A DNA stretch of 64,000 nucleotides from Parcubacteria group bacterium ADurb.Bin192 (GTDB taxonomy: Bacteria; Patescibacteriota; Patescibacteriia; 2-12-FULL-60-25). The position numbers and the translations under genes were made by a program. The DNA is taken from positions 1 to 64,000 of the forward strand of contig MWCR01000002.1 of assembly GCA_002070095.1 (NCBI GenBank), written 5' to 3'. The stretch's first letter is position 1. Every line of letters begins with the position of its first letter. Below the pieces are notes generated by a model, which did no database searches, was not told where the DNA came from, and was given only the letters and a program-made list of their open reading frames with translations. Positions 13,672-56,150 of the stretch are shown here, piece after piece.

Positions 13672-15516
13672 TTATTTTCCAATCTTTTCGCTCAAGATGA
13701 CCGCTTGTCCGACCGACAGGCCATGCAAAACCTGCACCCGGCCTTCGTCGCCCCTCAACCCCAGCTCGATCTGCTTGGTCTCGGGTTGATTATCAACCAA
13801 AATCCTGACCGACTTGGCACCTGTTTCGGCGTCCGTTTTAACCGCTCTGACCGGAATAACAAAAGCATTGTCAGCCACATTGGTCGTCACAATCACGTTG
13901 GCCGTCATACCGGGCTTAATATCCCTGTCGGTTTTTTCCAAAGCCACGCGAATTTTGTAATAAATGGCATCCAATACCTTGGTTTGATCAGGATTTTCAG
14001 CAGTGACCACCCCCTTAAATTTAATTTCATCACCATAAGAATCCAAAGTTATTTCCGCCTCTTGTCCCACCTGCACCTTAACAATATCCGCTTCCGGCAC
14101 TTGAGCTTCAATGTCATAAACCTCGGTGCCGATCATCCTGATCTGAGCCACGTTAGGCGTTATTTGCTCACCAACATCAGAAATCACGTCCGTGATCGTG
14201 CCGTCGACCGGTGCTAAAATCCTGACATTGTTTAAATTATTTTCAGCTTGAGCCAAAGACACATTCGCCTCTTGCAGTTGGGCCCGCAATGGAGCCACAT
14301 CAACCGCCCTGGGCCCGGCCACCTTTAAATCCAAAGCCGCTTGTGCCGAAGACACGGCCGCTTTTTGTATATCCACATTGGTTTCAGCGGCAGCTATTTT
14401 TAAATCAACATTGGTTTTGGCGATGTCATAAGCCACTTCAGCGGCCCTCAAAGCATCCGCTAACCTGGTTTTATCTGATGTATTATTAAGTTCAGCCATA
14501 TCCAAAGCTTGTCTGGCCGCCACCACGCTTGATTTTTGCGATGACACCTGAACGTAATCCGCATCAATGGCGGATTTTTTGGCCGTCAAAGCCGAAGCTG
14601 AAAATTCAGGCGTGGTAATGGAGGCGGCTAATACGGTTTTAACATCCAATAAAAATATTTGAATAGCCCCAATAGCCGCTTCTGTTTTATCAGCCGCGTC
14701 AAGCACGGTCTGCTTGCTTGAATCTGAAGACAACAACTCTATGGCCTTTTCCGCCTCAATCTTCAAGGCTTTAGCCTTTCGGTAACTGTTCTGGGCCGTG
14801 GTCATGGAGCCTTCGTTCAAAATACCCAGAGCGCTGGCGTACATTTTGCTGGAATTGGTGTCGTCCACGCCGGCCACGGAATCACCATCAACCAAAGCCG
14901 TATTCATGGGGCCGACCGTGGTTTTTAATGAAACCCTCGCGCTTTCGACCGCGTTTTTCAACGACTGATCCGTGATAGGTAATGAATTATCATAATTATT
15001 TTTAGCGGTTTCCAAGGCTATTAAAGCGCTCTGCAAATCATTTTGCACCTGTACTTTGGTATTTTCCAAATCAGAGAGCGATTTATCGTAAGCCGCTTCA
15101 GCCTGTTCCAATTGCGCCTCGGCCATCTTAATGGACTGTTCGGATTCTCCAGCCAAGCGCGCGTTTAAATTGGCGCTGGCCATGGCCACCATGGCTTGCG
15201 CTCTTTGCTGTGCGAAATATAAATCATCGGCCTCCAGTTCAGCCAAAACATCTCCGGCTTTAACCTGATCGCCGGTTTTGACGTAAACTTTTTGCAGAGT
15301 ACCGCCCGTCTTAAAAGCCAAATCAATGCGCGCGGCCGGTTTGATTTCGCCGGTCACTTCCACGGTTTGCAATAAACGACGCTGCTCGACTTCGGCCGTT
15401 TCATAGGTTATCTGTTTGGCTTTTTGCGCGTTTTGCCAAAACCAATAACCGCCCAGAGCAACCAATACTAGCGTGATATAAAAAATTTTACTTTTAAAAA
15501 TCTTGGGCATACTCAT
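13672..15516 (-). CDS. MacA/HlyD-type membrane fusion (adaptor) protein
   Basis: This is a periplasmic-type adaptor that connects the ABC permeases with the outside. A membrane anchor (about residues 8-26) is followed by a barrel-sandwich half (VEVTGEIKPAARIDLAFKTG, then VKAGDVLAELEADDL), a very long alpha-helical hairpin rich in Ala/Gln/Glu (about 90-420), the second lipoyl half (VRILAPVDGTITDV near 425) and beta-barrel plus membrane-proximal domains to the end (VRAVKTDAETG). At 614 aa it is much longer than MacA (about 370) because of the enlarged coiled coil, whose length may match the thickness of the cell wall or S-layer. Its ATG overlaps the regulator stop as ATGA (15513-15516). Confidence 0.9.
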   Translation of the reverse strand: MSMPKIFKSKIFYITLVLVALGGYWFWQNAQKAKQITYETAEVEQRRLLQTVEVTGEIKPAARIDLAFKTGGTLQKVYVKTGDQVKAGDVLAELEADDLYFAQQRAQAMVAMASANLNARLAGESEQSIKMAEAQLEQAEAAYDKSLSDLENTKVQVQNDLQSALIALETAKNNYDNSLPITDQSLKNAVESARVSLKTTVGPMNTALVDGDSVAGVDDTNSSKMYASALGILNEGSMTTAQNSYRKAKALKIEAEKAIELLSSDSSKQTVLDAADKTEAAIGAIQIFLLDVKTVLAASITTPEFSASALTAKKSAIDADYVQVSSQKSSVVAARQALDMAELNNTSDKTRLADALRAAEVAYDIAKTNVDLKIAAAETNVDIQKAAVSSAQAALDLKVAGPRAVDVAPLRAQLQEANVSLAQAENNLNNVRILAPVDGTITDVISDVGEQITPNVAQIRMIGTEVYDIEAQVPEADIVKVQVGQEAEITLDSYGDEIKFKGVVTAENPDQTKVLDAIYYKIRVALEKTDRDIKPGMTANVIVTTNVADNAFVIPVRAVKTDAETGAKSVRILVDNQPETKQIELGLRGDEGRVQVLHGLSVGQAVILSEKIGK

Positions 15517-15767
15517 GTTTTGCTATCTTGAACAGCCTCCTGTATTTTAAAACTTATATTTTGAATAAAATCCTGCATTTGATTGAGCGGCAAAAAAGCA
15601 ATCGGGCCATGGCCATGTCCCAAAACAAAAAACTTATCGCCTGTTTTCAATTCATAACGATCCCTGATTTCCTTGGGGATGACCAGCTGCCCGCGCTCAC
15701 CCAAAACCGCCGTGCCCATCACCGCATCCTGACAGACCTTTTTGTTTTTAGATGCATCTTTCCGCAT
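15513..15767 (-). CDS. AbrB/SpoVT-type DNA-binding protein
   Basis: This small transcription factor has a swapped-hairpin AbrB fold. The core spans about residues 17-55: TAVLGERGQLVIPKEIRDRY, LKTGDKFFVLG. That pattern is the SpoVT-AbrB domain used by MazE-type antitoxins and transition-state regulators. No toxin gene is adjacent, so a role as local regulator of the transporter is more likely. It is the first gene of the ABC operon and overlaps the adaptor gene by 4 nt. ATG 15767 is favoured because a strong promoter lies 17 nt upstream; no Shine-Dalgarno sequence is visible. Confidence 0.85.
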   Translation of the reverse strand: MRKDASKNKKVCQDAVMGTAVLGERGQLVIPKEIRDRYELKTGDKFFVLGHGHGPIAFLPLNQMQDFIQNISFKIQEAVQDSKT

Positions 15768-15784
15768 AAGTATGAATTATCAGA

Positions 15785-15813
15785 ATAGTAAGATAGATGG
15801 CGTTTATTGTCAA
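15785..15813 (-). promoter_or_regulatory. sigma70-like promoter of the AbrB-ABC operon
   Basis: A consensus TTGACA (15813-15808), a 17-nt spacer and TACTAT (15790-15785) lie on the minus strand. The -35 overlaps the TGA stop codon of the upstream MurL-MurD gene (15810-15812). The expected leader is only about 10 nt. Confidence 0.85.
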
Positions 15814-18332
15814 ACACCCGCCCGGCGCACGCATTGTTTAAAATCATCGCCCTTCTGCTCGAAATTCCTCCACAGACTGTAACTGGGAGAAGCGGTTGAC
15901 AGCAAGCAGATCTTCCCTTGTGACGTCCGCCGGTAAGCGAATTTAACGGCTTCCGCCATGCTGTCCGTACTTAAAACATGAAAACCTTTTTTTGAACGTA
16001 AAATCCTGCGGCCCGTGTCCGGGAACAAAACAATATTTCTGATGCCGGACGATCTTAAAGTTTTTTCCAAATCCGTAAAATCATACCCCCGATCCTCTCC
16101 GCCTAAAAAAATCGTATCCACACGCTTTAAAGCTTTGATGGCCTGAATGGTTGATTCAGGGGTAGTGGAAATGGCATCATCATAAAAATCAATGCCCTTA
16201 AAATTGCCCACAAACTCCAAACGGTGCGGCAAAGGCTTGAAGCCTCTAATGGCGCGTGCCATAACCTCCTCCTTAAGGCCCAACAGACGGCCCATTTTAA
16301 CCGCGGCTTTGACATTGTTTTTGTTATGCCGGCCCAAAAGCGGGATATCCCTGTCTTTCACCGGCAGCTTGACCTCGTTGTATTTGGTGATGGCAATATC
16401 GCCCGGAGCCTGAAATTTAAAGATGTTGCGTTTGGCCGCGTAGTAATTTTTCAAGCCTCCGTGGTAAGGCATGTGCTCGGGAAACAGATTAAGCAAAAGA
16501 GCGGCCTTGGGTGAATACTCTATATCATCCAGCATGTAACTCGAAAGCTCAATCACAAAAATCTCCTTGGGGTCGGTCTTGGTCAACAGAACTTCAAGCA
16601 TGGGACTCCCTATGTTGCCTACCAGCCTTACCTTTTTCCCATCTTCTTTCAGCATGGCGTAGATTAGACTGACGACCGTGCTCTTGCCTTTAGTGCCCGT
16701 TACTCCAACAGTAAAGTTATCGATATTCGCAAAAAACAGATTGGTGGCCGTCACATAGGGAATGGCTACCTTGGTCTTTGGCAGACCCGGAGTTTTAATG
16801 GCCAGATCAAAATCTTTTTGCCTTGATAAATAATCTTTGTCCATTTTTTGATCTAAGACACTTATCTTCAAACCCGGATAAAATTTCTGAACAAACTTTT
16901 TATTGATCTTGCCTTCATGTCCAAAACCCAGAATAGCCACGTTCTCCACGCCCAAAAACCTGAAAGGAGTTGGCAGGGTCGGCGCCAGCGCAGTACGCAT
17001 AACATCCTGTGTCAATGCCTCCGGTTGTTTTATTTTCATCAAAAAAGTATTAACCGCCATCGAATTTTTATATTTCTTTGATGCCAGATAAAGCGCGGCT
17101 CTGGACTCATCAAATGTACCGACGCAATCAAACGGTTTCAGCCGGCCGTAACCCAGCAAATCACGGTAAAGCGGCAACAAAGATTCATTATCCAATAAAT
17201 TTTTATTAAAAATGCGGATCAATTCTTTTTTGGCCGTAAAAGGAGCGAGCATCAAAAAAACAAAAGCGCATTTCGGGCACTGTCCGCACCATAAAGAGTC
17301 CGGGCGCGCTTGATGCACTCTGAAGTTGCGGTTACAGCTCGAGAAAAATGGAAAATATTTTTTATGCCGCGCGAACATTTTAGCCACCCTGATCTCATTA
17401 AACTGCCTCAAGATGGAAAAATACTTAATATGCGGACTAATGAACAGCCGGGTGTATTCCTGCAACAAAGATTCATATTCCATGGACTTGCTCCATTGAT
17501 GATTGATAATCACTCCGCGGTATTTTAAATTGCCAAAATTACTGCTTTGCTCGTTGCCCACCGCCAAATACCTGTATCCGTGCAATCTGGCCGCCAACAA
17601 ACCCAAGAAAGAAAATATGGCTGAAATGGGAATGTGGCCGTTATACGAACCCTCATGAGGTTCGAAAATTTTAGGGTCCAAAAAACGTTTGACGATCAAT
17701 TGCTCGTTTCCGATCGCGCGCATTACGCGCCTGGTCAAAGCATCCTCTTTTTGAGTCTCAACTAAAAAAGAAGTCGTCTCATACCGGCCTTTCAACAATT
17801 CGGCCGCCACAATCGAATCCTTGCCCCCGCCGATACCCAGTAAAACCCGTTTATTAGCCGACCCCAAGTCAAACCCGACCTGTTTTTGAGTAATGACATT
17901 TTTTGAACCCTTTTTAGCGGGAAAGCGGGCTATCATTTTCAAATCCAATTTATTTCTGTACAAAAACTCACCCAAGCCCTTGGCGTAAACCGTATTCCAA
18001 AATTCCGCCTGTTTAACGGAAAGGTTGTAACCGGTCTGTATACTCGGAGGACAATACAGCTTGTAGTAACTGATGCCCAAAATCAAATGCAGGGGCTGTA
18101 AATAAAGATCCAGTTCCTCCGGAGTAATATTTTTTATTTTTTGAGGTAAAACTATTCTGTCCGTAAAAACCATTGATTCACGGTTAGAAAATTCCAGCCG
18201 GTAATTAAACTCAATTGCTTTGCCTGAATCATTCACCTTATAATCAACAAACTTAAAAACTTTGGCCTTGGGCGCAGACTTGTGAGAAAATCGGCCGACG
18301 GTTTTATTTTGCTTATCACCTGGATAAGTCAT
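15810..18332 (-). CDS. MurL-MurD fusion: glutamate epimerase joined to UDP-MurNAc-L-Ala glutamate ligase
   Basis: Residues 1 to about 440 resemble MurL, the ATP-dependent epimerase that converts the terminal L-Glu of UDP-MurNAc-L-Ala-L-Glu to D-Glu. They show a PP-loop-like GIGGGKDS (about 164-171), AVGNEQSSN, and a Cys motif WCGQCPKCAFVF. Residues about 460-840 are a complete MurD-type ligase: GVTGTKGKST ATP loop, VIELSSYML, HMPYHGG, LPHRLEFVG, YDDAISTTPEST, LGGEDRGYDF, and a C-terminal LLSTASPSYSLW. In Xanthomonas a separate MurD2 adds L-Glu and MurL epimerises it, replacing glutamate racemase MurI. Here both steps would sit on one chain in the cytoplasm, just before the lipid stages. The start overlaps the translin-like gene by 17 nt. 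The MurL call rests on motif memory. Confidence 0.82.
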   Translation of the reverse strand: MTYPGDKQNKTVGRFSHKSAPKAKVFKFVDYKVNDSGKAIEFNYRLEFSNRESMVFTDRIVLPQKIKNITPEELDLYLQPLHLILGISYYKLYCPPSIQTGYNLSVKQAEFWNTVYAKGLGEFLYRNKLDLKMIARFPAKKGSKNVITQKQVGFDLGSANKRVLLGIGGGKDSIVAAELLKGRYETTSFLVETQKEDALTRRVMRAIGNEQLIVKRFLDPKIFEPHEGSYNGHIPISAIFSFLGLLAARLHGYRYLAVGNEQSSNFGNLKYRGVIINHQWSKSMEYESLLQEYTRLFISPHIKYFSILRQFNEIRVAKMFARHKKYFPFFSSCNRNFRVHQARPDSLWCGQCPKCAFVFLMLAPFTAKKELIRIFNKNLLDNESLLPLYRDLLGYGRLKPFDCVGTFDESRAALYLASKKYKNSMAVNTFLMKIKQPEALTQDVMRTALAPTLPTPFRFLGVENVAILGFGHEGKINKKFVQKFYPGLKISVLDQKMDKDYLSRQKDFDLAIKTPGLPKTKVAIPYVTATNLFFANIDNFTVGVTGTKGKSTVVSLIYAMLKEDGKKVRLVGNIGSPMLEVLLTKTDPKEIFVIELSSYMLDDIEYSPKAALLLNLFPEHMPYHGGLKNYYAAKRNIFKFQAPGDIAITKYNEVKLPVKDRDIPLLGRHNKNNVKAAVKMGRLLGLKEEVMARAIRGFKPLPHRLEFVGNFKGIDFYDDAISTTPESTIQAIKALKRVDTIFLGGEDRGYDFTDLEKTLRSSGIRNIVLFPDTGRRILRSKKGFHVLSTDSMAEAVKFAYRRTSQGKICLLSTASPSYSLWRNFEQKGDDFKQCVRRAGV

Positions 18333-18876
18333 AACGAATATCTTCGATTTTGCGCAGATGCTGTTTGCTTTGATCGAATTTAGATCTTAACGAACCGGTT
18401 AAGTCCAGCGTCGCCAGCCAATCGACTATTTTTAAAACTGCCTTGTGAGCGGTTTCTACTGATTGGGCATCGTGTTCCGTGGCCCGTAAAACCGAATAAC
18501 GGGCCACTTCACCGGCCAAATCAGCTAAACCGCCGATTACAGCCTCCTCATCTTTGGCAATCTCGTTCGGTAAATAAACTTCACCGGCCAAATAACCTCT
18601 GAAAAATACAGCCTCCGCGTATTCTTCCAGGGCCGAATGATAAGCTGATTCATTGGCCAGACTTGAATTCTTTTTAATCAATGACTGACATTTAGTTAAA
18701 TATTTTTCAGCTTGAGCCAAATCCGCCTCCGCTTTCCGGCCGTCGCCTCGATGCAAAGCAAAAATGGCCACCTTGGCCGTCTTGCGCAGGTCATTGGCCG
18801 TCTGGTCCAAAGCGCGCTTCTCTTGATCATGAATTTTTTTTAACTTTTCCACCTTTTGAAAATTAAACATCTTCAT
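18316..18876 (-). CDS. Translin/TRAX family protein
   Basis: This all-alpha protein of 186 aa matches the translin superfamily: a basic N-terminal helix, the segment EEYAEAVFFRGYLAGE (about 107-122), and GGLADLAGEVARYSV (about 138-152), which matches the GLxDLTGELxR signature. The family binds single-stranded RNA or DNA; eukaryotic translin with TRAX forms the C3PO RNase. The ExxE in EYAEA lines up by eye with TRAX catalytic glutamates, so nuclease activity is possible but unproven. Archaea have homologues; bacterial ones are uncommon. It overlaps its neighbours on both sides (13 and 17 nt), so it is co-translated with a glycosyltransferase and MurL-MurD, an odd pairing. Confidence 0.75.
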   Translation of the reverse strand: MKMFNFQKVEKLKKIHDQEKRALDQTANDLRKTAKVAIFALHRGDGRKAEADLAQAEKYLTKCQSLIKKNSSLANESAYHSALEEYAEAVFFRGYLAGEVYLPNEIAKDEEAVIGGLADLAGEVARYSVLRATEHDAQSVETAHKAVLKIVDWLATLDLTGSLRSKFDQSKQHLRKIEDIRYDLSR

Positions 18877-20588: not shown

Positions 20589-20602
20589 AAGCGGTTTTTT
20601 TA
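20581..20602 (+). terminator. Rho-independent terminator overlapping a stop codon
   Basis: accgct (20581-20586) pairs with agcggt (20590-20595) around an aaa loop and is followed by seven T. The TAA stop of the small membrane protein (20586-20588) is part of the hairpin. Confidence 0.85.
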
Positions 20603-21706
20603 ATCCTCGTCTTCGGGCAAAAATTTTTGTATCAGCTCGGCCCATTCGGTTCCGTCATCGGTTTTAACCGATCTATGCAATTCATCAGCCAAGCGCCTGG
20701 ACTCATCCGGATGTTTTAGGAGATGGCAAACTTGTTTATAGATATCATCAAATAATCCCGGCCCCTCTTTAACCTCCACCGCACCCAAAGGCAAATGTTG
20801 AGCGTTTCTTTCTTGAGAAGAATTTTTGATTGGCACTAAAATACTTGTTTTGGATAAAGTCGCCAAATCGGTAATGGCTCCCATGCCGGCGCGCGACACC
20901 ACCACATCGGCCGCCGCATAAGCATTCAGCAAATCCTGTTCATCCAAAAATTCTCTTTTCACATAACCCGGACGCTCCAACTCTGCCAGCCCCCTGCCCT
21001 TACCCGTCAGATGAATGATCTGAATTTTGGACAACCATTTGTCCAAATTATTTTCGACCACTTGATTCAAGGCTAAAGAACCAGTTCCTCCGCCCGTAAA
21101 CAACACCACCGGCCGGCGCGCATCCAGGCCAAAATGAGCCGCGGCCATAATCTTTTCCGGCCATCTCAAGCCCACGAATCTGTTGGGAGTGGCTATGCGT
21201 TTTTCATCAGCCTGTCTATTACGATATTTATCCAGGGGCACGGTTAAAAGTTTTTTATGATAAACGAATGTTGTGGTAATCAGCCTGCAATACTTAGCCA
21301 CCAACTTATTGGACAATAATGGGTCATAATCCAGCTGATGAATAACACAAGGTATGCCTCGCTCAGCCGCCAGCCGCATTACAGGCACTTGGGTAAAACC
21401 ACCGGCGCCGATAATGATATGCGGATGCCAGTCATCCAAAAAAATACCGGCCTGCTGTTTGGCTTTATAATAATCAAAAGGCCAAGTCAATAATTTCCAG
21501 GTTAAATAACGAGGCAATTTAGCCGCCCGCAAAGACACGAAAGCCAGGTCCGAGTTTTCAATAATACGTTTTTCCGGCCCGTCCGGCGTGCCTACCCAAA
21601 CAAATTTATCCGCCGGGTGCAAGGCGGACAACTTCTTCTGCAAAGCTAAAAGAGGCACCACGGGGCCCATCGTCCCTCCTCCGACTAAAGCTATGACACG
21701 AGGCAT
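20600..21706 (-). CDS. murG: MurG-like lipid II GlcNAc transferase
   Basis: It transfers GlcNAc from UDP-GlcNAc to lipid I at the inner face of the membrane to make lipid II. It is a GT28-type GT-B enzyme: ALVGGGTMGPVVPLLAL near the N-terminus, GAGGFTQVPVM for the second glycine-rich loop, TGGGTGSLALNQ at the donor domain, and SRAGMGAITDLATLSKTSILVP followed by the NAQHL segment at the UDP-GlcNAc site. I start it at ATG 21706, one nt after the ftsW stop; an upstream frame would read into ftsW. The first loop reads GGGTMG rather than the usual GGTGGH, so the family is clear but the sequence is divergent. Length is 368 aa. Confidence 0.85.
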   Translation of the reverse strand: MPRVIALVGGGTMGPVVPLLALQKKLSALHPADKFVWVGTPDGPEKRIIENSDLAFVSLRAAKLPRYLTWKLLTWPFDYYKAKQQAGIFLDDWHPHIIIGAGGFTQVPVMRLAAERGIPCVIHQLDYDPLLSNKLVAKYCRLITTTFVYHKKLLTVPLDKYRNRQADEKRIATPNRFVGLRWPEKIMAAAHFGLDARRPVVLFTGGGTGSLALNQVVENNLDKWLSKIQIIHLTGKGRGLAELERPGYVKREFLDEQDLLNAYAAADVVVSRAGMGAITDLATLSKTSILVPIKNSSQERNAQHLPLGAVEVKEGPGLFDDIYKQVCHLLKHPDESRRLADELHRSVKTDDGTEWAELIQKFLPEDED

Positions 21707-21707
21707 A

Positions 21708-22808
21708 TTAAGACTGACGACTGATTGAAGCCATGATACCACAAGCCGCGCTTAAGGCAACAAAAGCCGAACTGCCGTAACTGATGAAAGGCAGGGTAAC
21801 GCCGGTGATGGGCATGAGGCCGATCATGGAAGCGATATTAAAAATGGTTTGAATGCCAATCCAGGCTCCGATGCCAACCGCCAAAAAACGCCCAAAGTAA
21901 TCGGGCGCCCGCCGCGCTATGATAAACATGCGGTAAACAAGATAACCGATGGCTGCCAATAAAAGACAGGCCACCAAAAACCCCATCTCTTCGGCAATAA
22001 CCGCAAAAATGGAATCACCGGCCACTTCAGGCAGATACAAATGTTTTTGTCTGGAATGACCATAGCCCAAACCAAACAAACCACCCGAACCGATAGCTAA
22101 AAAAGCCTGATTAATATGATAGCCGATACCTTGCGGATCCAATTCGGGATGTAAAAAAGTTAAAAACCTGGCCGCTCTATAAGGAGTTAATTTAACCAGC
22201 AAGGCTATCAATAAAGCCGAAGCCAAACCAATGGCCGCGAACCAAATGAGCGGCGCGCCGGCTATAAAATAAACCGTTAAAGACGCTCCCACGATCACGG
22301 CCATGGAGCCGGTGTTAGGCTGTAAAATCAGCAGACCCATTATCACGGAGAGTGACAATAAAAACGGAATCAATCCGCCCTCCAAAGTCTTAGCCTCATA
22401 ATCATGCCTCTTGGCCAGCCAGGCGGCCACGTAAATCAGAAATCCCAGTTTAACAAATTCAGACGGTTGGAACGAAATAAAACCCAGTTGAACCCAGCGC
22501 CCGGAACCTCCAAAATGCAGGCCTATACCCGGAATATAAACCAGCAAAAGCAAAACAATCGAACCGATTAAGGCGGCCGGCGCCAAAAATTGCAGTTTGC
22601 GATAATCCAGGCGTGAAAAAATCAAAAACAAAAATGTGCCCGGCAAAAGACCGTAAATTAATTGATGTTTAAAAAAATAAGCTGAATCTTCGAATTTTTG
22701 ATAGCCCAAGGGACCACTGGCCGACAAAAGCATTAATAAACCGAAACCCACAATCATTCCAAGAATCAATAAAAACTTTCGATCTATGGGTTTTTTATCC
22801 TCCCTCAT
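21708..22808 (-). CDS. ftsW: SEDS peptidoglycan polymerase FtsW/RodA
   Basis: This polytopic enzyme polymerises lipid II into glycan strands with a partner class B PBP, at the septum (FtsW) or side wall (RodA). About ten membrane helices are visible. Family motifs: GGSGRWVQLGFISFQPSEFVK, LQPNTGSMAVI, AIGSGGLFGLGYG, the catalytic-Asp loop LPEVAGDSIFAVIAEEMGF, and GLMPITGVTLPFISYGSS. All key residues appear present. Length (366 aa) is normal. Clustered with mraY and murG, FtsW is more likely than RodA. It is 7 nt after mraY and 1 nt before murG. Confidence 0.95.
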   Translation of the reverse strand: MREDKKPIDRKFLLILGMIVGFGLLMLLSASGPLGYQKFEDSAYFFKHQLIYGLLPGTFLFLIFSRLDYRKLQFLAPAALIGSIVLLLLVYIPGIGLHFGGSGRWVQLGFISFQPSEFVKLGFLIYVAAWLAKRHDYEAKTLEGGLIPFLLSLSVIMGLLILQPNTGSMAVIVGASLTVYFIAGAPLIWFAAIGLASALLIALLVKLTPYRAARFLTFLHPELDPQGIGYHINQAFLAIGSGGLFGLGYGHSRQKHLYLPEVAGDSIFAVIAEEMGFLVACLLLAAIGYLVYRMFIIARRAPDYFGRFLAVGIGAWIGIQTIFNIASMIGLMPITGVTLPFISYGSSAFVALSAACGIMASISRQS

Positions 22809-22815
22809 AATCCAA

Positions 22816-23865
22816 TTACTTATCGATGGTATGTATCAAAATACCCAAAGCTGAAAAAATAAAAGAGACCACCCAGAACCGCATGACGATTTTAGGCTCT
22901 CCCCAGCCCAGAGCTTCCAAATGATGATGCAAAGGAGAACTCCTGAAAACTTTTTTGCCGTTTCTTAATTTTTTGGAAATCATTTGCACGATAACCGACC
23001 CGGATTCAATCACAAAGGGCAGTCCGATAATAGGTAAAAGCAACGGCTGATTGGTCAGCATGGCCACAATGCCCAAAACGGTTCCTAAGGCCATGGCACC
23101 CGTGTCTCCCATAAAAAAGGCGGCCGGTGTGATGTTGTGCCACAAAAAAGCCAGCAAAGCTCCAATGATGGCCGCGCAAAAAGCCGCCAAATCAGTCCTG
23201 CCCTGCATAAAAGCAATGGCTGCGTAAGCGCCGAAAGCGGCCATTAAAGTCCCGCCCGCCAGGCCGTCCAAGCCATCGGTCTCATTAACCGAAAAAGAGG
23301 TAGCCACAATGATAAAAATAAAAAACGGAATATACAGCCAGCTGATTTCATAATTACCCGCGAAAGGAATGTGCACCACATCCCAATCGAGCTTGGCGTA
23401 AAACCACCAGGCGCACATGGCGGCCACGGCCGTATAGGCCAAAATGCGATAGCGCTTGCGCAAACCTCCGCCTCTGGGGCCCAAACCGCGCACATTCAAA
23501 TAATCATCCAGCAGACCGATCAAGGCGGCCGCAATCATGGCTCCAAAAGGGACGTAAGTTTGCGTGCGCGACAAAATGTTCCAAGAGCACCAGACACCGT
23601 TCGGATCCAATTGACAGAGGAGCCAAACAAGACCCACCACTAAAACCACGGCCCCCCAAATGACCACACCTCCCATATTGGGCGTCCCGGCTTTATGCGC
23701 GTGCAATTTATTCATAACCGGCGCCGAGGCCGCGTCTCTGATATTTTTTCCCAATTTATACCGGCGCAGTAATTTAATGATGCCGGGCGTACTGATAAAA
23801 GCCACCATGAAGCACAGAAAAGCAAAAGTAATGATGCGCACAATCTCCCAAGTCATGATGGTCAT
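22816..23865 (-). CDS. mraY: Phospho-MurNAc-pentapeptide translocase MraY
   Basis: It attaches phospho-MurNAc-pentapeptide to undecaprenyl phosphate to form lipid I. It is a ten-helix membrane enzyme with the expected cytosolic motifs: DDYLNVRG (Mg2+ site), NETDGLDGLAGG, FMGDTGAMALG, and the His-rich SSPLHHHLEALGWGE loop near residue 320. The N-terminal KAGTPNMGGVV motif is also intact. Length 349 aa is normal. It heads the mraY-ftsW-murG order that is usual for the dcw cluster, though the mur ligases are not here; a MurD activity is fused to MurL at 15810. Confidence 0.97.
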   Translation of the reverse strand: MTIMTWEIVRIITFAFLCFMVAFISTPGIIKLLRRYKLGKNIRDAASAPVMNKLHAHKAGTPNMGGVVIWGAVVLVVGLVWLLCQLDPNGVWCSWNILSRTQTYVPFGAMIAAALIGLLDDYLNVRGLGPRGGGLRKRYRILAYTAVAAMCAWWFYAKLDWDVVHIPFAGNYEISWLYIPFFIFIIVATSFSVNETDGLDGLAGGTLMAAFGAYAAIAFMQGRTDLAAFCAAIIGALLAFLWHNITPAAFFMGDTGAMALGTVLGIVAMLTNQPLLLPIIGLPFVIESGSVIVQMISKKLRNGKKVFRSSPLHHHLEALGWGEPKIVMRFWVVSFIFSALGILIHTIDK

Positions 23866-37156: not shown

Positions 37157-37948
37157 ATGATAGTTTTTGCAGCCATAGTCCCTCACTCCCCCCTGCTCCT
37201 GCCCACCATCGGCAAAGAGCATCAGAGCAAGCTGGCCCAAACCCTGGCCGCTTATCAGGAAATTGAACAAGCTCTATATTTGGCCAAAGCCGAAACTTTG
37301 TGCATCATCGCCCCGCACGGCCCGCGCTACCCGGACTCGTTCAGCGCCAACATGGCCGGCTCTTATCAAGGCACTTTAAAGTCTTTCGGCGATTTTTCCA
37401 CCACGGTCAAGGCTAAAAGCGACTACATGTTGATCGATAGAGCGCATCGCAAGATGAGAGAAGAAGGCCTGCCCTTTACCTTGACCTCCAGCGAAGAACT
37501 GGACTATAGCTACTCCATACCTATCATCCTGCTGACCGCTCATTTGCAAAACTGGAAGCTGTTTCCTATTTCACCTTCCATGATGGACGGCAAAGCTCAC
37601 TACGAATTCGGCCGGCAGTTAAAAAGAGTTTTGCACGCCGAAACCAGACGGGTGGCCGTCATCGCCAGCGCCGACCTGTCCCACAAGCTGACAGCCGACT
37701 CTCCGGGAGGTCCTTCAGCCGAAGGGCCTAAGTTCGACGAGGCCGTCAAACAAGCCGTCCAAACCAAAGACCCCAACCACCTTCTGTCCCTGCCGCTAGA
37801 AGTTATTGAAAATTCCGGCCAATGCGGCTATCGTCCTATAACTACCTTGTTGGGTACGCTCGAAAACACGAACTACGAACCAAAAGTTTTGAGTTACGAG
37901 GCTCCTTTCGGCGTAGGCTATCTGGTCGCCAAATACAACATCGGGTGA
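37157..37948 (+). CDS. LigB-family protein (class III extradiol dioxygenase-like / Memo-like)
   Basis: The fold is recognisable from AAIVPHSPLLLPTIGKE at the N-terminus, IIAPHGPRYPDS (about residue 54), and VAVIASADLSHKL (about 175), which place His residues where LigB and MEMO1-like proteins have theirs. In true dioxygenases these bind Fe(II); in the Memo branch the metal role is unclear. Length is 263 aa. It starts 3 nt after the lysozyme-like gene and looks co-transcribed with it. No radical-SAM partner of the AmmeMemoRadiSam type and no aromatic pathway are in the window, so the function is open. Confidence 0.8.
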   Translation: MIVFAAIVPHSPLLLPTIGKEHQSKLAQTLAAYQEIEQALYLAKAETLCIIAPHGPRYPDSFSANMAGSYQGTLKSFGDFSTTVKAKSDYMLIDRAHRKMREEGLPFTLTSSEELDYSYSIPIILLTAHLQNWKLFPISPSMMDGKAHYEFGRQLKRVLHAETRRVAVIASADLSHKLTADSPGGPSAEGPKFDEAVKQAVQTKDPNHLLSLPLEVIENSGQCGYRPITTLLGTLENTNYEPKVLSYEAPFGVGYLVAKYNIG

Positions 37949-38052: not shown

Positions 38053-39795
38053 ATGTTCATCTCGGTTATTCCCGGCGTCAAAATGCCTTACGGCCATTCT
38101 TTTTTTGACTATCAAGTTACCGAAGGCACGGCCCATATCGGAGATTTGATCATGGTGCCTTTTCGGCAAAAAAAAATCCCGGCCCTGATCTCCAATATAT
38201 CGCCGGTCAGCGACTACGCGGATAAAGTCATTTCCATCAGTCAAGTTCAAAAAATCATAAAATTTCCGGAAATTTTGCCGTCCATCTGTCTAAAAACGGC
38301 TCAATTCAGTCTGGTGTCACCAGCCACTATGCTCAACGCCTGGCTGAGAAAAATACCCAAAAAACTGCCGGATCAAGAACCGCACGTGCTCCCGCGCAAC
38401 CTGCATTGGCCCAAAAACGAGCCTCGCCACCAAAAATTTTACCTGGCCAACAGATATCTGGGTGATCACGGTTTGATCCAAACCGCGCTCAAACAACAAG
38501 CCAACGGCCGTGTTTTGATTATCACGCCTTGGCAATCACGCGTGGCTTATTTACAAAGCAGGCTCAACTGCCCGGGCCTGACTTCCAAAACCGCGGATGG
38601 AGCGGCCTGGAAAATTTGGAATGATTTCCTAGCCAACCCTCACGGCGTACTGATCGCCACTCGTTTGGGCGCCTGGCTCTGTTCCTGCGCTGATATTGTA
38701 ATTATGGATGAACCTGAAAACGATGATTATAAACAAGACGAACTCACGCCCAGATACGACGCTCGGACCATCATCGAAATCACCAAACAGGAAAACCCGG
38801 CTCTGCGCGTCATTGAAATCGGAACCACTCCGAGCCTGAATGTTTTAAAATCCGGTCAATTGCCGGCCACGGAACCTCTGGAACCGGACATGAACATCCA
38901 AGCCTTCTCATCCGCCGGCCGATCCGCCATCAGCTCACTGACGGCGGCTACCTATCTGGAAATGCAAAACGCTTCGGCGGACGGCCGAAAAATACGCGTA
39001 CTGCACGCGGTCGGCGGCTCCAGAGGCCGGATCAGATGCGCTGACTGCGACTGGTTTTTGACTTGCGAGCGTTGCGGCACGGGCATGAATAATTACACGC
39101 AATACGCTCAATGTAAAAAATGCAATGCCAAAACTCCCCTGCCCGCTTCATGCCCCAATTGCCAAGGGTCTAATTTTTCCAAATCCATGATCGGCTGTGA
39201 TGAATTGCAAAAACAAGCGCAAAAAAATTTTCCGGACGCGGATATCAAAGTCATGGATCTGCATGATTGGTCAACAGCCTCCACCCCTGCGGCGTCATTG
39301 CTGATTATCACCGAACTGGCCTTTATCGGCGGCTGGACCGAAGATATCCGCAAAAAAGAAAGATTGGTTACGGCCTTCAGGCGCATCGCGGCTCAAGCCG
39401 TCAACACTCGCAGCCGGCTCATTGTTCAAGGACACGAAGCTTTGCTCGACCAATGTCCAAGCTGGCTCACCCCGGACGGCTTGCTCAAGGTCTGGAAACA
39501 GGAATGGCAGGACAGGGACAGTTTTCACTTTCCGCCGGCTCACCAACTGATAAAATTAATCGTCATCAACCGGCAACAAGATTTAACCGACACGATAAAA
39601 CAGACTCTCAACCGGCCGGACTGGCAAATCAATGGACCATGGCCGGTGGAAAATATGACTAAAACACGAAATCCAAGGCTGATTTATCACCTCCTGCCTC
39701 CTGACTATCTAACCAAGGAGCAAGTCGCGGAGCAAGTGACATGCCTGGTAAAATTAGGTATCATAGATCTTGACCCAATCGCATTTTTCTGCTAA
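38053..39795 (+). CDS. priA: PriA-like replication restart protein without helicase motifs
   Basis: PriA binds stalled forks and reloads the replicative helicase. The N-terminal 3'-end-binding domain (YQVTEGTAHIGDLIMVPF), zinc-binding region with eight cysteines in CxxC pairs (CADCDWFLTCERCG, CKKCN, CPNC, about 330-380) and C-terminal domain (HFPPAHQLIKLIVINR) are present. The Walker A GxTGSGKT expected before VLIITPWQSR is missing: the place reads YLGDHGLIQTALKQ. The DEEH box reads MDEPENDDYKQDE. It is therefore probably a structural PriA without ATPase, as annotated for actinobacterial PriA. Length 580 aa, against about 730 for the E. coli protein. A promoter for def lies in its 3' end. Confidence 0.85.
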   Translation: MFISVIPGVKMPYGHSFFDYQVTEGTAHIGDLIMVPFRQKKIPALISNISPVSDYADKVISISQVQKIIKFPEILPSICLKTAQFSLVSPATMLNAWLRKIPKKLPDQEPHVLPRNLHWPKNEPRHQKFYLANRYLGDHGLIQTALKQQANGRVLIITPWQSRVAYLQSRLNCPGLTSKTADGAAWKIWNDFLANPHGVLIATRLGAWLCSCADIVIMDEPENDDYKQDELTPRYDARTIIEITKQENPALRVIEIGTTPSLNVLKSGQLPATEPLEPDMNIQAFSSAGRSAISSLTAATYLEMQNASADGRKIRVLHAVGGSRGRIRCADCDWFLTCERCGTGMNNYTQYAQCKKCNAKTPLPASCPNCQGSNFSKSMIGCDELQKQAQKNFPDADIKVMDLHDWSTASTPAASLLIITELAFIGGWTEDIRKKERLVTAFRRIAAQAVNTRSRLIVQGHEALLDQCPSWLTPDGLLKVWKQEWQDRDSFHFPPAHQLIKLIVINRQQDLTDTIKQTLNRPDWQINGPWPVENMTKTRNPRLIYHLLPPDYLTKEQVAEQVTCLVKLGIIDLDPIAFFC

Positions 39796-54275: not shown

Positions 54276-56150
54276 CTACCCTAGAACGGCTTTTATCCTC
54301 CTGACTCCGGCACTAACCGCCTCTTCCTTACTGATTTTAAAGCCTCCCAACTCACCGGTTCTGGCCACATGCGGGCCTCCGCAAATCTCCTTGGAATAAT
54401 AGCCGGCTGGATTTTCCGTATCCAAAACCGTATAAACACTGACCTTTTCACCATACTTACTTTCGAACAAACCGATAGCCCCCTTCTCTTTAGCCTGCTC
54501 CACGCTCATCTCTTCTTTGATCACGGGCAAGTCACGTTTAATAATCGCGTTAACCATGGCTTCCACCTGATCTTTTTCTTGATCCGTCATTTTTTGTCCA
54601 TGTGTAAAGTCAAAGCGCAATCTTTGTTCCGTGATATTACTCCCCCTCTGCTCGACATGCGTGCCTAAAACCGACCTCAAGGCCTGATGCAGTAAATGAG
54701 TGGCCGTATGTAATTTGGTTGTCTGCTCCGTGTGATCGGCCAGCCCGCCCTTAAAAGTGCCGGCCGAAGCCGTCCTTGAAAGAGCCTGATGTTTTTTGAA
54801 TTCTTCCTCAAAAACACCCCTGTCCACGCTGCCGCCACGCTCTTTGGCCAATTCTTCGGTTAACTCTATGGGAAAACCATACGTCGCGTACAACACAAAA
54901 GCTTGCTCGCCGGATATTTTGGGAGCCTGTTCTGCCATTTTATCGAACTCTTTTAAGCCTTTTTCCAGCGTTAAATTAAACTTTTCTTCTTCTTTTTTGA
55001 CCTCGTTTAAAATCTTAGCCGCGTTCTGTTCCAACTCCGTATACTCATCTTTATACTGTTCAATCACCGCCTGACAGACAGCCGGAGTAATCAGTACCTC
55101 AACTCCCAATCTTTTAGCCTCGCGGACCGAACGTCTGATCAAACGTCTGACAATATACCCTTGTCCGATGTTGGACGGAACCACACCTCTGACGTCGCCA
55201 ATCAAAAACACCACCGCTCTCAAATGATCAGCGATAATTCTAATGGCTTTGTCTTGATCATCTGTTTGTCCATAATCCAATCCAAAAACTTGCTTTAATA
55301 CCTGAATGATATTTTGCATTTTATCGGTGTCAAAAACCGTAGCACACCCCTGCAAAACGGCCGCCATTCTTTCCAAACCCATGCCCGTATCTACATTGCG
55401 CTGGGCCAAAGGCTCATAAGAACCGTCGTCCCGCTTATTGTACTGCATGAATACATTGTTCCAAATTTCAACAAACCGACCGCAGTCGCAGGCCGGATGA
55501 CAGATGTCGCCAAAAGCCGGATCGTGCTCACGGCGGGTGTCATAATAAATTTCCGTATCAGGACCACATGGACCGGTTTGACCGGCCGGACCCCACCAAT
55601 TATTTTTTTTAGGATAAGGAAAAATCCGCTTGCCGTGCGTTTCGCCGGTCGGCCAATCAATCCCGGGCTGACCGACTTCGGCCGCCATGCCGTGCACCGC
55701 GAATTGCGCTTGCCACATATTGATCGAATCATCGTCCCGAGGAGCATCGGCATCGCCTTCAAAAACCGACACATACAAACGTTCAGGATCCATGGCCAGC
55801 CATTTTTCATTGGTCAATAATTCATAAGACCACTGAATGGACTCTTCTTTAAAATAATCTCCCAACGACCAGTTGCCCAGCATCTCAAAAAACGTCAGAT
55901 GACGGTTATCACCCACCTCATCAATATCATCCGTACGCAGACATTTTTGAGCATTGGCCAGCCTTTTGCCCATGGGATGATCTTGTCCCAATAAGTAAGG
56001 CACCAAAGGCTGCATGCCGGCCGTGGTAAACAGTACCGTCGGATCGTTTTCCGGAATCAATGAAGCCGAAGGCAAGACGGCATGGCCTTTTTCTTTAAAA
56101 AAATCCAAAAACAACCGCCTAATATTATCCGTGGTCAAATTCTTATGCAT
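54276..56150 (-). CDS. alaS: Alanyl-tRNA synthetase, without C-terminal C-Ala domain
   Basis: It charges tRNA-Ala and edits mischarged Ser/Gly. The class II catalytic core is present (FKEKGHAVLPSASLIPENDP, FTTAGMQPLVPYL), then tRNA recognition helices and the editing domain with HTATHLLHQALRSVLG and the second metal motif CGGPHV near the end. It stops at residue 624, just after the editing core (GGFKISKEEAVSAGVRRIKA), so the DHHA1/C-Ala region of the usual 870-residue enzyme is missing. The missing part normally helps tRNA binding and dimerisation. The end precedes the ribosomal promoter. Confidence 0.96.
   Translation of the reverse strand: MHKNLTTDNIRRLFLDFFKEKGHAVLPSASLIPENDPTVLFTTAGMQPLVPYLLGQDHPMGKRLANAQKCLRTDDIDEVGDNRHLTFFEMLGNWSLGDYFKEESIQWSYELLTNEKWLAMDPERLYVSVFEGDADAPRDDDSINMWQAQFAVHGMAAEVGQPGIDWPTGETHGKRIFPYPKKNNWWGPAGQTGPCGPDTEIYYDTRREHDPAFGDICHPACDCGRFVEIWNNVFMQYNKRDDGSYEPLAQRNVDTGMGLERMAAVLQGCATVFDTDKMQNIIQVLKQVFGLDYGQTDDQDKAIRIIADHLRAVVFLIGDVRGVVPSNIGQGYIVRRLIRRSVREAKRLGVEVLITPAVCQAVIEQYKDEYTELEQNAAKILNEVKKEEEKFNLTLEKGLKEFDKMAEQAPKISGEQAFVLYATYGFPIELTEELAKERGGSVDRGVFEEEFKKHQALSRTASAGTFKGGLADHTEQTTKLHTATHLLHQALRSVLGTHVEQRGSNITEQRLRFDFTHGQKMTDQEKDQVEAMVNAIIKRDLPVIKEEMSVEQAKEKGAIGLFESKYGEKVSVYTVLDTENPAGYYSKEICGGPHVARTGELGGFKISKEEAVSAGVRRIKAVLG

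Follow-up and report, generated by a model that had tools for sequence, protein, structure and literature searches.

A fused MurL–MurD gene, predicted to be bifunctional, in the murD position of a Patescibacterium without glutamate racemase

Introduction

Can the bypass of glutamate racemase (MurI) be carried by a single gene, and can such a gene displace the canonical route within one bacterial genus? Almost all peptidoglycan contains D-Glu, and the MurI step that supplies it is a drug target. The MurD2/MurL pathway is a known bypass of MurI that has been described from few genera. In the established cases the ligase, MurD2, and the epimerase, MurL, are separate proteins, with in vitro assays reported for those of Xanthomonas, Micromonospora and Salinispora (PMC8788868, PMC5808125). 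In one review the pair is confined to Gamma- and Alphaproteobacteria and rare actinobacteria, and a 2018 review adds further orthologues of low similarity in cyanobacteria, a fungus and an amoeba (PMC8788868, PMC5808125).

The question is raised by a stretch of 64,000 nucleotides from Parcubacteria group bacterium ADurb.Bin192 (contig MWCR01000002.1, positions 1 to 64,000), referred to here as the window, in which a MurL-like half and a MurD half lie in one reading frame. We consider below the identity of the two halves, the distribution of the fusion, the substrate that its ligase half is likely to use and the way in which the gene came to occupy its present position.

Results

One frame with a MurL half and a MurD half

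The frame is uninterrupted over 840 codons, with zero internal stops. Its principal features are:

15810–18332, minus strand: murL-murD fusion gene, an ORF of 840 aa with an ATG start; stop codon 15810–15812
17025–18269, minus strand: MurL (epimerase) domain, residues 22–436, with a QatC/QueC-like fold (NF041275, E=4.4e-103; QatC Z 18.9 over 322 residues)
17814–17831, minus strand: PP-loop GGGKDS, residues 168–173, conserved across 39 MurL sequences
17268–17336, minus strand: C333-x15-C349-G-x-C352-x2-C355, a possible zinc site like that of QueC; all four cysteines invariant in 39 MurL sequences
15813–16964, minus strand: MurD (ligase) domain, residues 457–840 (TIGR01087, 244 bits; E. coli MurD, Z about 26.5)
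16680–16697, minus strand: MurD ATP-binding P-loop GTKGKS, residues 546–551, with five of the six positions invariant in 12 fused proteins

The N-terminal half aligns to positions 6–414 of the 447 in NF041275, a model whose name refers to Xanthomonadales. Its score of 345 bits lies under the curated cut-off of 700 bits, which is passed in 0 of 380 sampled Patescibacteria genomes, and we therefore term this half a MurL homologue and not a member of the equivalog. The C-terminal half scores 244.1 bits (E=3e-72) on the NCBIfam model TIGR01087, over the curated cut-off of 211.95 bits, and both this score and the predicted fold place it in the MurD family. The Pfam matches of the fused protein comprise the Mur ligase middle and C-terminal domains only (Mur_ligase_M, 2e-20; Mur_ligase_C, 2e-6).

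A second species of the genus, represented by genome G407, carries the same fused frame on a 971-kb contig, with 67% identity over 842 residues. Of the 58 genomes in our phylum sample that match MurL strongly, 12 contain a fused frame, and fused frames also occur at many other loci, so that an assembly chimera is ruled out. A sequence-only reading of the window had proposed a MurL-like half joined to a complete MurD in a single 840-residue frame, and had named HMM comparison of both halves as one check. The two models and the frame in G407 bear this out, and no other PP-loop family matches the N-terminal half better by sequence.

Residues G169, G170, D172 and S173 of the PP-loop are invariant in an alignment of 39 MurL sequences that takes in Rhodanobacter and Devosia, genera reported as pathway users, and the other two of the six positions are nearly so. 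The cysteine pattern of the window is C(x)15CGxCxxC; in other members the first spacer is shorter. Residues G546, K548, G549, K550 and S551 of the ligase P-loop are unchanged across 12 fused proteins, and MurL precedes MurD in every fused protein examined.

An AlphaFold2 model of the whole chain (68 sequences) has a mean pLDDT of 93.8 and a pTM of 0.90, with values below 50 confined to residues 1–16. Its ligase half superposes on E. coli MurD with a Z of about 26.5. For its epimerase half the match is QatC (Z 18.9 and 18.7; rmsd 3.9–4.2; 320–322 of 428 residues; 11–12% identity), which superposes on residues 22 to 426 of the fused protein, and a search of a viral library returned QueC proteins for the same half. 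In the predicted structure the MurL half is thus nearest to the QatC/QueC enzymes, which would suit an adenylate mechanism. The window's MurL half has no match to the QueC family PF06508 (the best among 39 relatives is E=0.0022), and we therefore call it QueC/QatC-like in fold and not a PF06508 member. In hhalign profile comparisons QueC scored no better than MnmA for MurL, and the QueC cysteines were aligned; PADLOC models gave no match to the MurL half.

The signature motifs of QueC are SGGxDS and C(x)8CxxCxxC; QatC retains the second as the variant C(x)19CGxCxxRR (PMC13329287). The MurL half resembles QueC and QatC, the latter a component of the qatABCD defence system, in its predicted fold, in PP-loop and CGxC cysteine motif, and in an expected ATP-dependent chemistry (PMC13279940, PMC13329287), but it has GGGKDS in place of SGGxDS and the substrate predicted for it is a UDP-muramyl dipeptide. 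Neither peptidoglycan nor MurL is found by a word search of these two papers.

Distribution of fused and separate genes

In the sample of 380 Patescibacteria, MurL is matched in 62 genomes and strongly in 58. The murL and murD genes are adjacent in most MurL genomes, often overlapping by a few bases. Among named records, where a query with a single protein found nothing and a query with an alignment found the loci, 41 of the best 80 loci are fused and the others are mostly murL-murD tandems. The fused loci among these best 80 belong to Moranbacteria, Staskawiczbacteria, Falkowbacteria, Peregrinibacteria, Kaiserbacteria and Woesebacteria, and also to TM6, many Bacteroidales and two Bacillota. 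One contig labelled Omnitrophota (L193, JAHJHM010000081.1) carries a fused MurL–MurD that groups inside Patescibacteria; it is probably misbinned, the other possibility being a recent transfer.

A MurL tree built by the careful method places eight fused proteins together (97/92) and has at least five changes between the fused and separate states; a wider, quick tree of named records has ten such changes, seven of them forced by starred branches. On these trees more than one event has occurred, the counts being unable to tell fusion from splitting.

A functional fusion could simply be a joined operon, holding two genes together with no hand-over of substrate, and we see the chances of this as evenly balanced. 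Adjacent or slightly overlapping genes suffice in most MurL genomes, and the repeated changes between states on the tree are also as expected from such a join. On the other side, entire clades retain the fusion, the order of its halves is the same wherever it recurs, and the model fixes the relative placement of the halves confidently (pTM 0.90), though none of this demonstrates channelling. The sequence-only reading had proposed that UDP-MurNAc-L-Ala-L-Glu would be channelled from ligase to epimerase, a proposal that reaches further than these observations.

Substrate-selecting residues of the ligase half

Mutagenesis of Xanthomonas MurD2 identified E197 and R358, at the positions of E. coli D182 and K348, as governing the choice of L- or D-Glu; P433 and F435 also differ from E. 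coli A414 and L416, and E. coli MurD K319T accepts L-Glu (PMC8788868). The corresponding residues of the window are:

16476–16478, minus strand: E619, equivalent to E. coli D182 and Xanthomonas MurD2 E197, an L-Glu selectivity residue (alignment and published mutagenesis)
16170–16172, minus strand: I721, equivalent to E. coli K319 (alignment and published mutagenesis)
16089–16091, minus strand: R748, equivalent to E. coli K348 and MurD2 R358, an L-Glu selectivity residue (alignment and published mutagenesis)
15879–15887, minus strand: P816-S817-Y818, equivalent to E. coli A414, S415 and L416, with MurD2 P433 and F435 at the outer two positions (alignment)

The window thus has the MurD2 residues E619, R748 and P816, with an aromatic residue, Y818, at the fourth site. 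The fused proteins as a group (those of the phylum sample plus G407) were compared with 29 control MurDs from Patescibacteria that carry MurI. Arginine at position 348 is present in 12 of 12 readable fused proteins and in 1 of 29 controls, and glutamate at position 182 in 10 of 13 and 7 of 29, respectively. Proline at position 414 occurs in 8/12 fused proteins against 0/29 controls, and the K319 site is I or L in 11/12 against 0/29. The canonical MurDs of the genus mates are of the D-Glu type (D, K, A or S, and F).

The MurD of Rhodanobacter, a genus listed in a review as bearing MurD2/MurL (PMC8788868), has E, R, P and F at the four sites, so the residue readout performs as expected on a known positive. 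At least five MurL-bearing, MurI-lacking genomes have a canonical K348 MurD (L138 in G353, L089 in G067, L128 in G137, L085 in G303 and L135 in G159). The L-Glu residue set is therefore not universal beside MurL, whether because the rule admits exceptions or because MurD functions in another way in these genomes.

Absence of glutamate racemase and D-amino-acid transaminase

The genome to which the window belongs (1.44 Mb in 69 contigs, completeness score 100%) has no MurI by either of two models, PF01177 and TIGR00067, and zero matches to Aminotran_4, the family of the class-IV D-amino-acid transaminases. It thus resembles the genomes expected of the MurD2/MurL pathway in lacking both glutamate racemase and D-amino-acid transaminase. 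The fused protein is its sole MurD above cut-off. Other Mur-ligase matches, considered as candidates for a second MurD, are MurC, MurE and a MurF-like protein. The sequence-only reading had proposed a search for murI and for a second murD, and the outcome is in its favor. MurB, MurC, MurE and the MurF-like protein are present; the MurF and MurG proteins of this genome fall under the cut-offs of their models.

MurI is matched, at about 100 bits or more, in 115 of the 380 sampled genomes, and MurL and MurI occur together in none (58 versus 115 genomes; Fisher p=1.3e-10, a value that is optimistic owing to the relatedness of the genomes). Exclusion within the genus is separate support. MurL is found in two of the nine species, that of the window and that of G407, both times as the fusion, and MurI is above cut-off in the seven species that lack MurL and missing from these two. 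The earlier expectation of MurI-free peptidoglycan in the lineage thus holds for two of nine species and fails for the genus or family as a whole. Four other genomes with a fusion (G110, G178, G208 and G374) have PF01177 proteins under the MurI cut-off that may be aspartate racemases. In G169 the fused frame is cut by a contig end, and a second MurD-like protein scores 214 bits, its DH motif unseen in the alignment.

These observations bear on a second reading of the fusion, in which the MurD half simply adds D-Glu as an ordinary ligase, the MurL half has decayed or plays another role, and D-Glu comes from an unseen source such as a side activity of DapF or uptake from a host. The function of MurL in Patescibacteria is deduced from characterized homologues, and in Chlamydia DapF is reported as a second source of D-Glu (PMC5885031). 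Moreover, at the thresholds applied, MurI and MurL are both missing from 207 of the 380 genomes, which must have other sources of D-Glu or no need of it. Against this, MurL has kept its PP-loop and cysteine motifs whole, and these are conserved; the window's MurD half has L-Glu residues that the MurDs of its genus mates lack, and MurL and MurI are mutually exclusive, within the genus as well. We regard an ordinary D-Glu ligase as improbable.

The murD slot within the genus

The position of the fusion can be compared across the genus through its neighbors:

18316–18876, minus strand: Translin-family gene, overlapping the start of the fusion and marking the murD slot upstream (PF01997, E=1e-15)
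15513–15767, minus strand: AbrB-like gene, marking the slot downstream (TIGR01439)
20600–23865, minus strand: murG (20600–21742), ftsW (21708–22808) and mraY (22816–23865), later peptidoglycan steps (profile matches; MurG below cut-off)

The order is mraY, ftsW, murG, a glycosyltransferase gene, the Translin-family gene and then either murD or murL-murD; 3′ of the slot, most members of the genus have the AbrB-like gene followed by an efflux cluster. A complete stand-alone MurD is present in G404, G406, G408 and G410, pieces of MurD lie at contig ends in G403 and G405, and no MurD above threshold was found in G409. This common gene order indicates that the fusion is an exact replacement of a stand-alone murD. 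In other genera of the family (G212, G322 and G085) a canonical murD adjoins the same Translin-family gene, in G322 together with the AbrB-like gene, and the canonical murD is therefore most likely the ancestral state of the slot. In G406 and G408, murI has a gene for an RseP-like protease on one side and one for a phosphomannomutase-like protein on the other. These flanking genes lie next to each other in the window's genome (about 130 bases apart) and in G407 (about 45 bases apart), and the old murI site is closed.

The Translin family is best known from eukaryotes; here its gene is the neighbor of murD, or of the fusion, across the genus, and several further genera of the family show the same arrangement. 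Two other lineages, those of L189 (Patescibacteria FK_Sedi_B_Bin.404) and L194 (a Staskawiczbacterium), have the fused gene in a slot unlike that of the window, with mraY on one side and ftsW-murG on the other, which is where murD classically stands.

A quick tree places the MurD half inside a clade made up of fused proteins that belong to other families, apart from the genus-mate MurDs, with SH-aLRT values of 92–100 on the branches concerned. Its identity to the genus-mate MurDs is 25–29%, while the whole fusion is about 60% identical over its length to the fused proteins of Moranbacteria-like records; the nearest named record is JAQTXZ010000001.1, from Patescibacteria group bacterium STC_25. 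By sequence comparison, then, the MurD half has a foreign ancestry. An origin in place, with murL inserted before the genus's own murD and specificity changing afterwards, would account for the shared slot, but the tree and these identities speak against it, and we consider it very improbable.

Three other genes in the window are recorded here. A 580-residue PriA-like protein at 38053–39795 (plus strand) has a partial, weak PriA match (82 bits, cut-off 230) and no Pfam helicase-domain match; from its sequence it is possibly a helicase-dead PriA. A short alanyl-tRNA synthetase of 624 residues at 54276–56150 (minus strand; NF002436, 864 bits) stops after the editing domain, the usual C-terminal part being missing. 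A LigB/Memo-like protein is encoded at 37157–37948 (plus strand; PF02900, E=1e-24; PF01875, E=2e-10; model for AmmeMemoRadiSam system protein B).

Discussion

We consider it very likely that the fused gene encodes a bifunctional enzyme of the MurD2/MurL pathway, that it was acquired from a different lineage and took the place of the genus's own D-Glu-type murD, and that murI was lost. By analogy with the characterized proteins, the single chain would perform both the ligase and the epimerase reactions, and automatic names that call the fused proteins D-glutamate ligases are probably mistaken about the substrate.

According to published work, MurL consumes one ATP with formation of AMP, and its discoverers proposed adenylation of the α-carboxylate; QueC uses ATP and acts on a carboxylate (PMC8788868; PMC13279940, PMC13329287). 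Together these activities suggest that the MurL half adenylates the α-carboxylate of Glu. In the mechanism that we propose, the N-terminal half, with its PP-loop and QueC/QatC-like fold, would consume a second ATP, the most likely use being adenylation of the α-carboxylate of the L-Glu residue, which would acidify the α-proton, and would invert the Glu center before the adenylate is hydrolyzed. The cell would then require neither MurI nor free D-Glu. The adenylate chemistry, a role of zinc, the order in which the changes in the genus took place and any transfer of substrate from one site to the other are our inference.

The closest known system is that of Xanthomonas oryzae, where MurD2 (XOO_1320) and MurL (XOO_1319) supply both domains, with L-Glu-type ligase residues and a genome that lacks MurI; there the two are separate proteins, whereas here one 840-residue chain in a Patescibacterium contains both. 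The canonical MurDs of the four genus mates share the genomic slot and the ligase fold but are stand-alone, carry D-Glu-type residues and coexist with MurI. Other fusions, such as MurC–Ddl and MurE–MurF (NF011171, NF008896), place two Mur-pathway steps on one chain, but these do not pair a ligase with an epimerase or avoid free D-Glu.

In the open-access literature searched we found no account of a fused MurL–MurD, of MurL in Patescibacteria or of the likeness to QatC, and no description of an exchange of murI and MurD for the fusion within a genus; given that limit, we claim no priority.

The likeness in fold to QatC and QueC gives this epimerase, the chemistry of which has been described as unclear, a mechanism that can be tested. 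The murL-murD fusion may also act as a one-gene cassette, by which the supply of D-Glu is exchanged in a single in-place step and murI is then dropped, repeatedly across phyla; we put this forward tentatively, as somewhat less probable than its contrary. A bypass described from few genera as two proteins would here be carried by one bifunctional gene, which occurs in Patescibacteria, Bacteroidales, Bacillota and TM6. Because one genus retains both states, together with the site of replacement and the closed site of murI, the exchange of an essential pathway can be read directly from its genomes.
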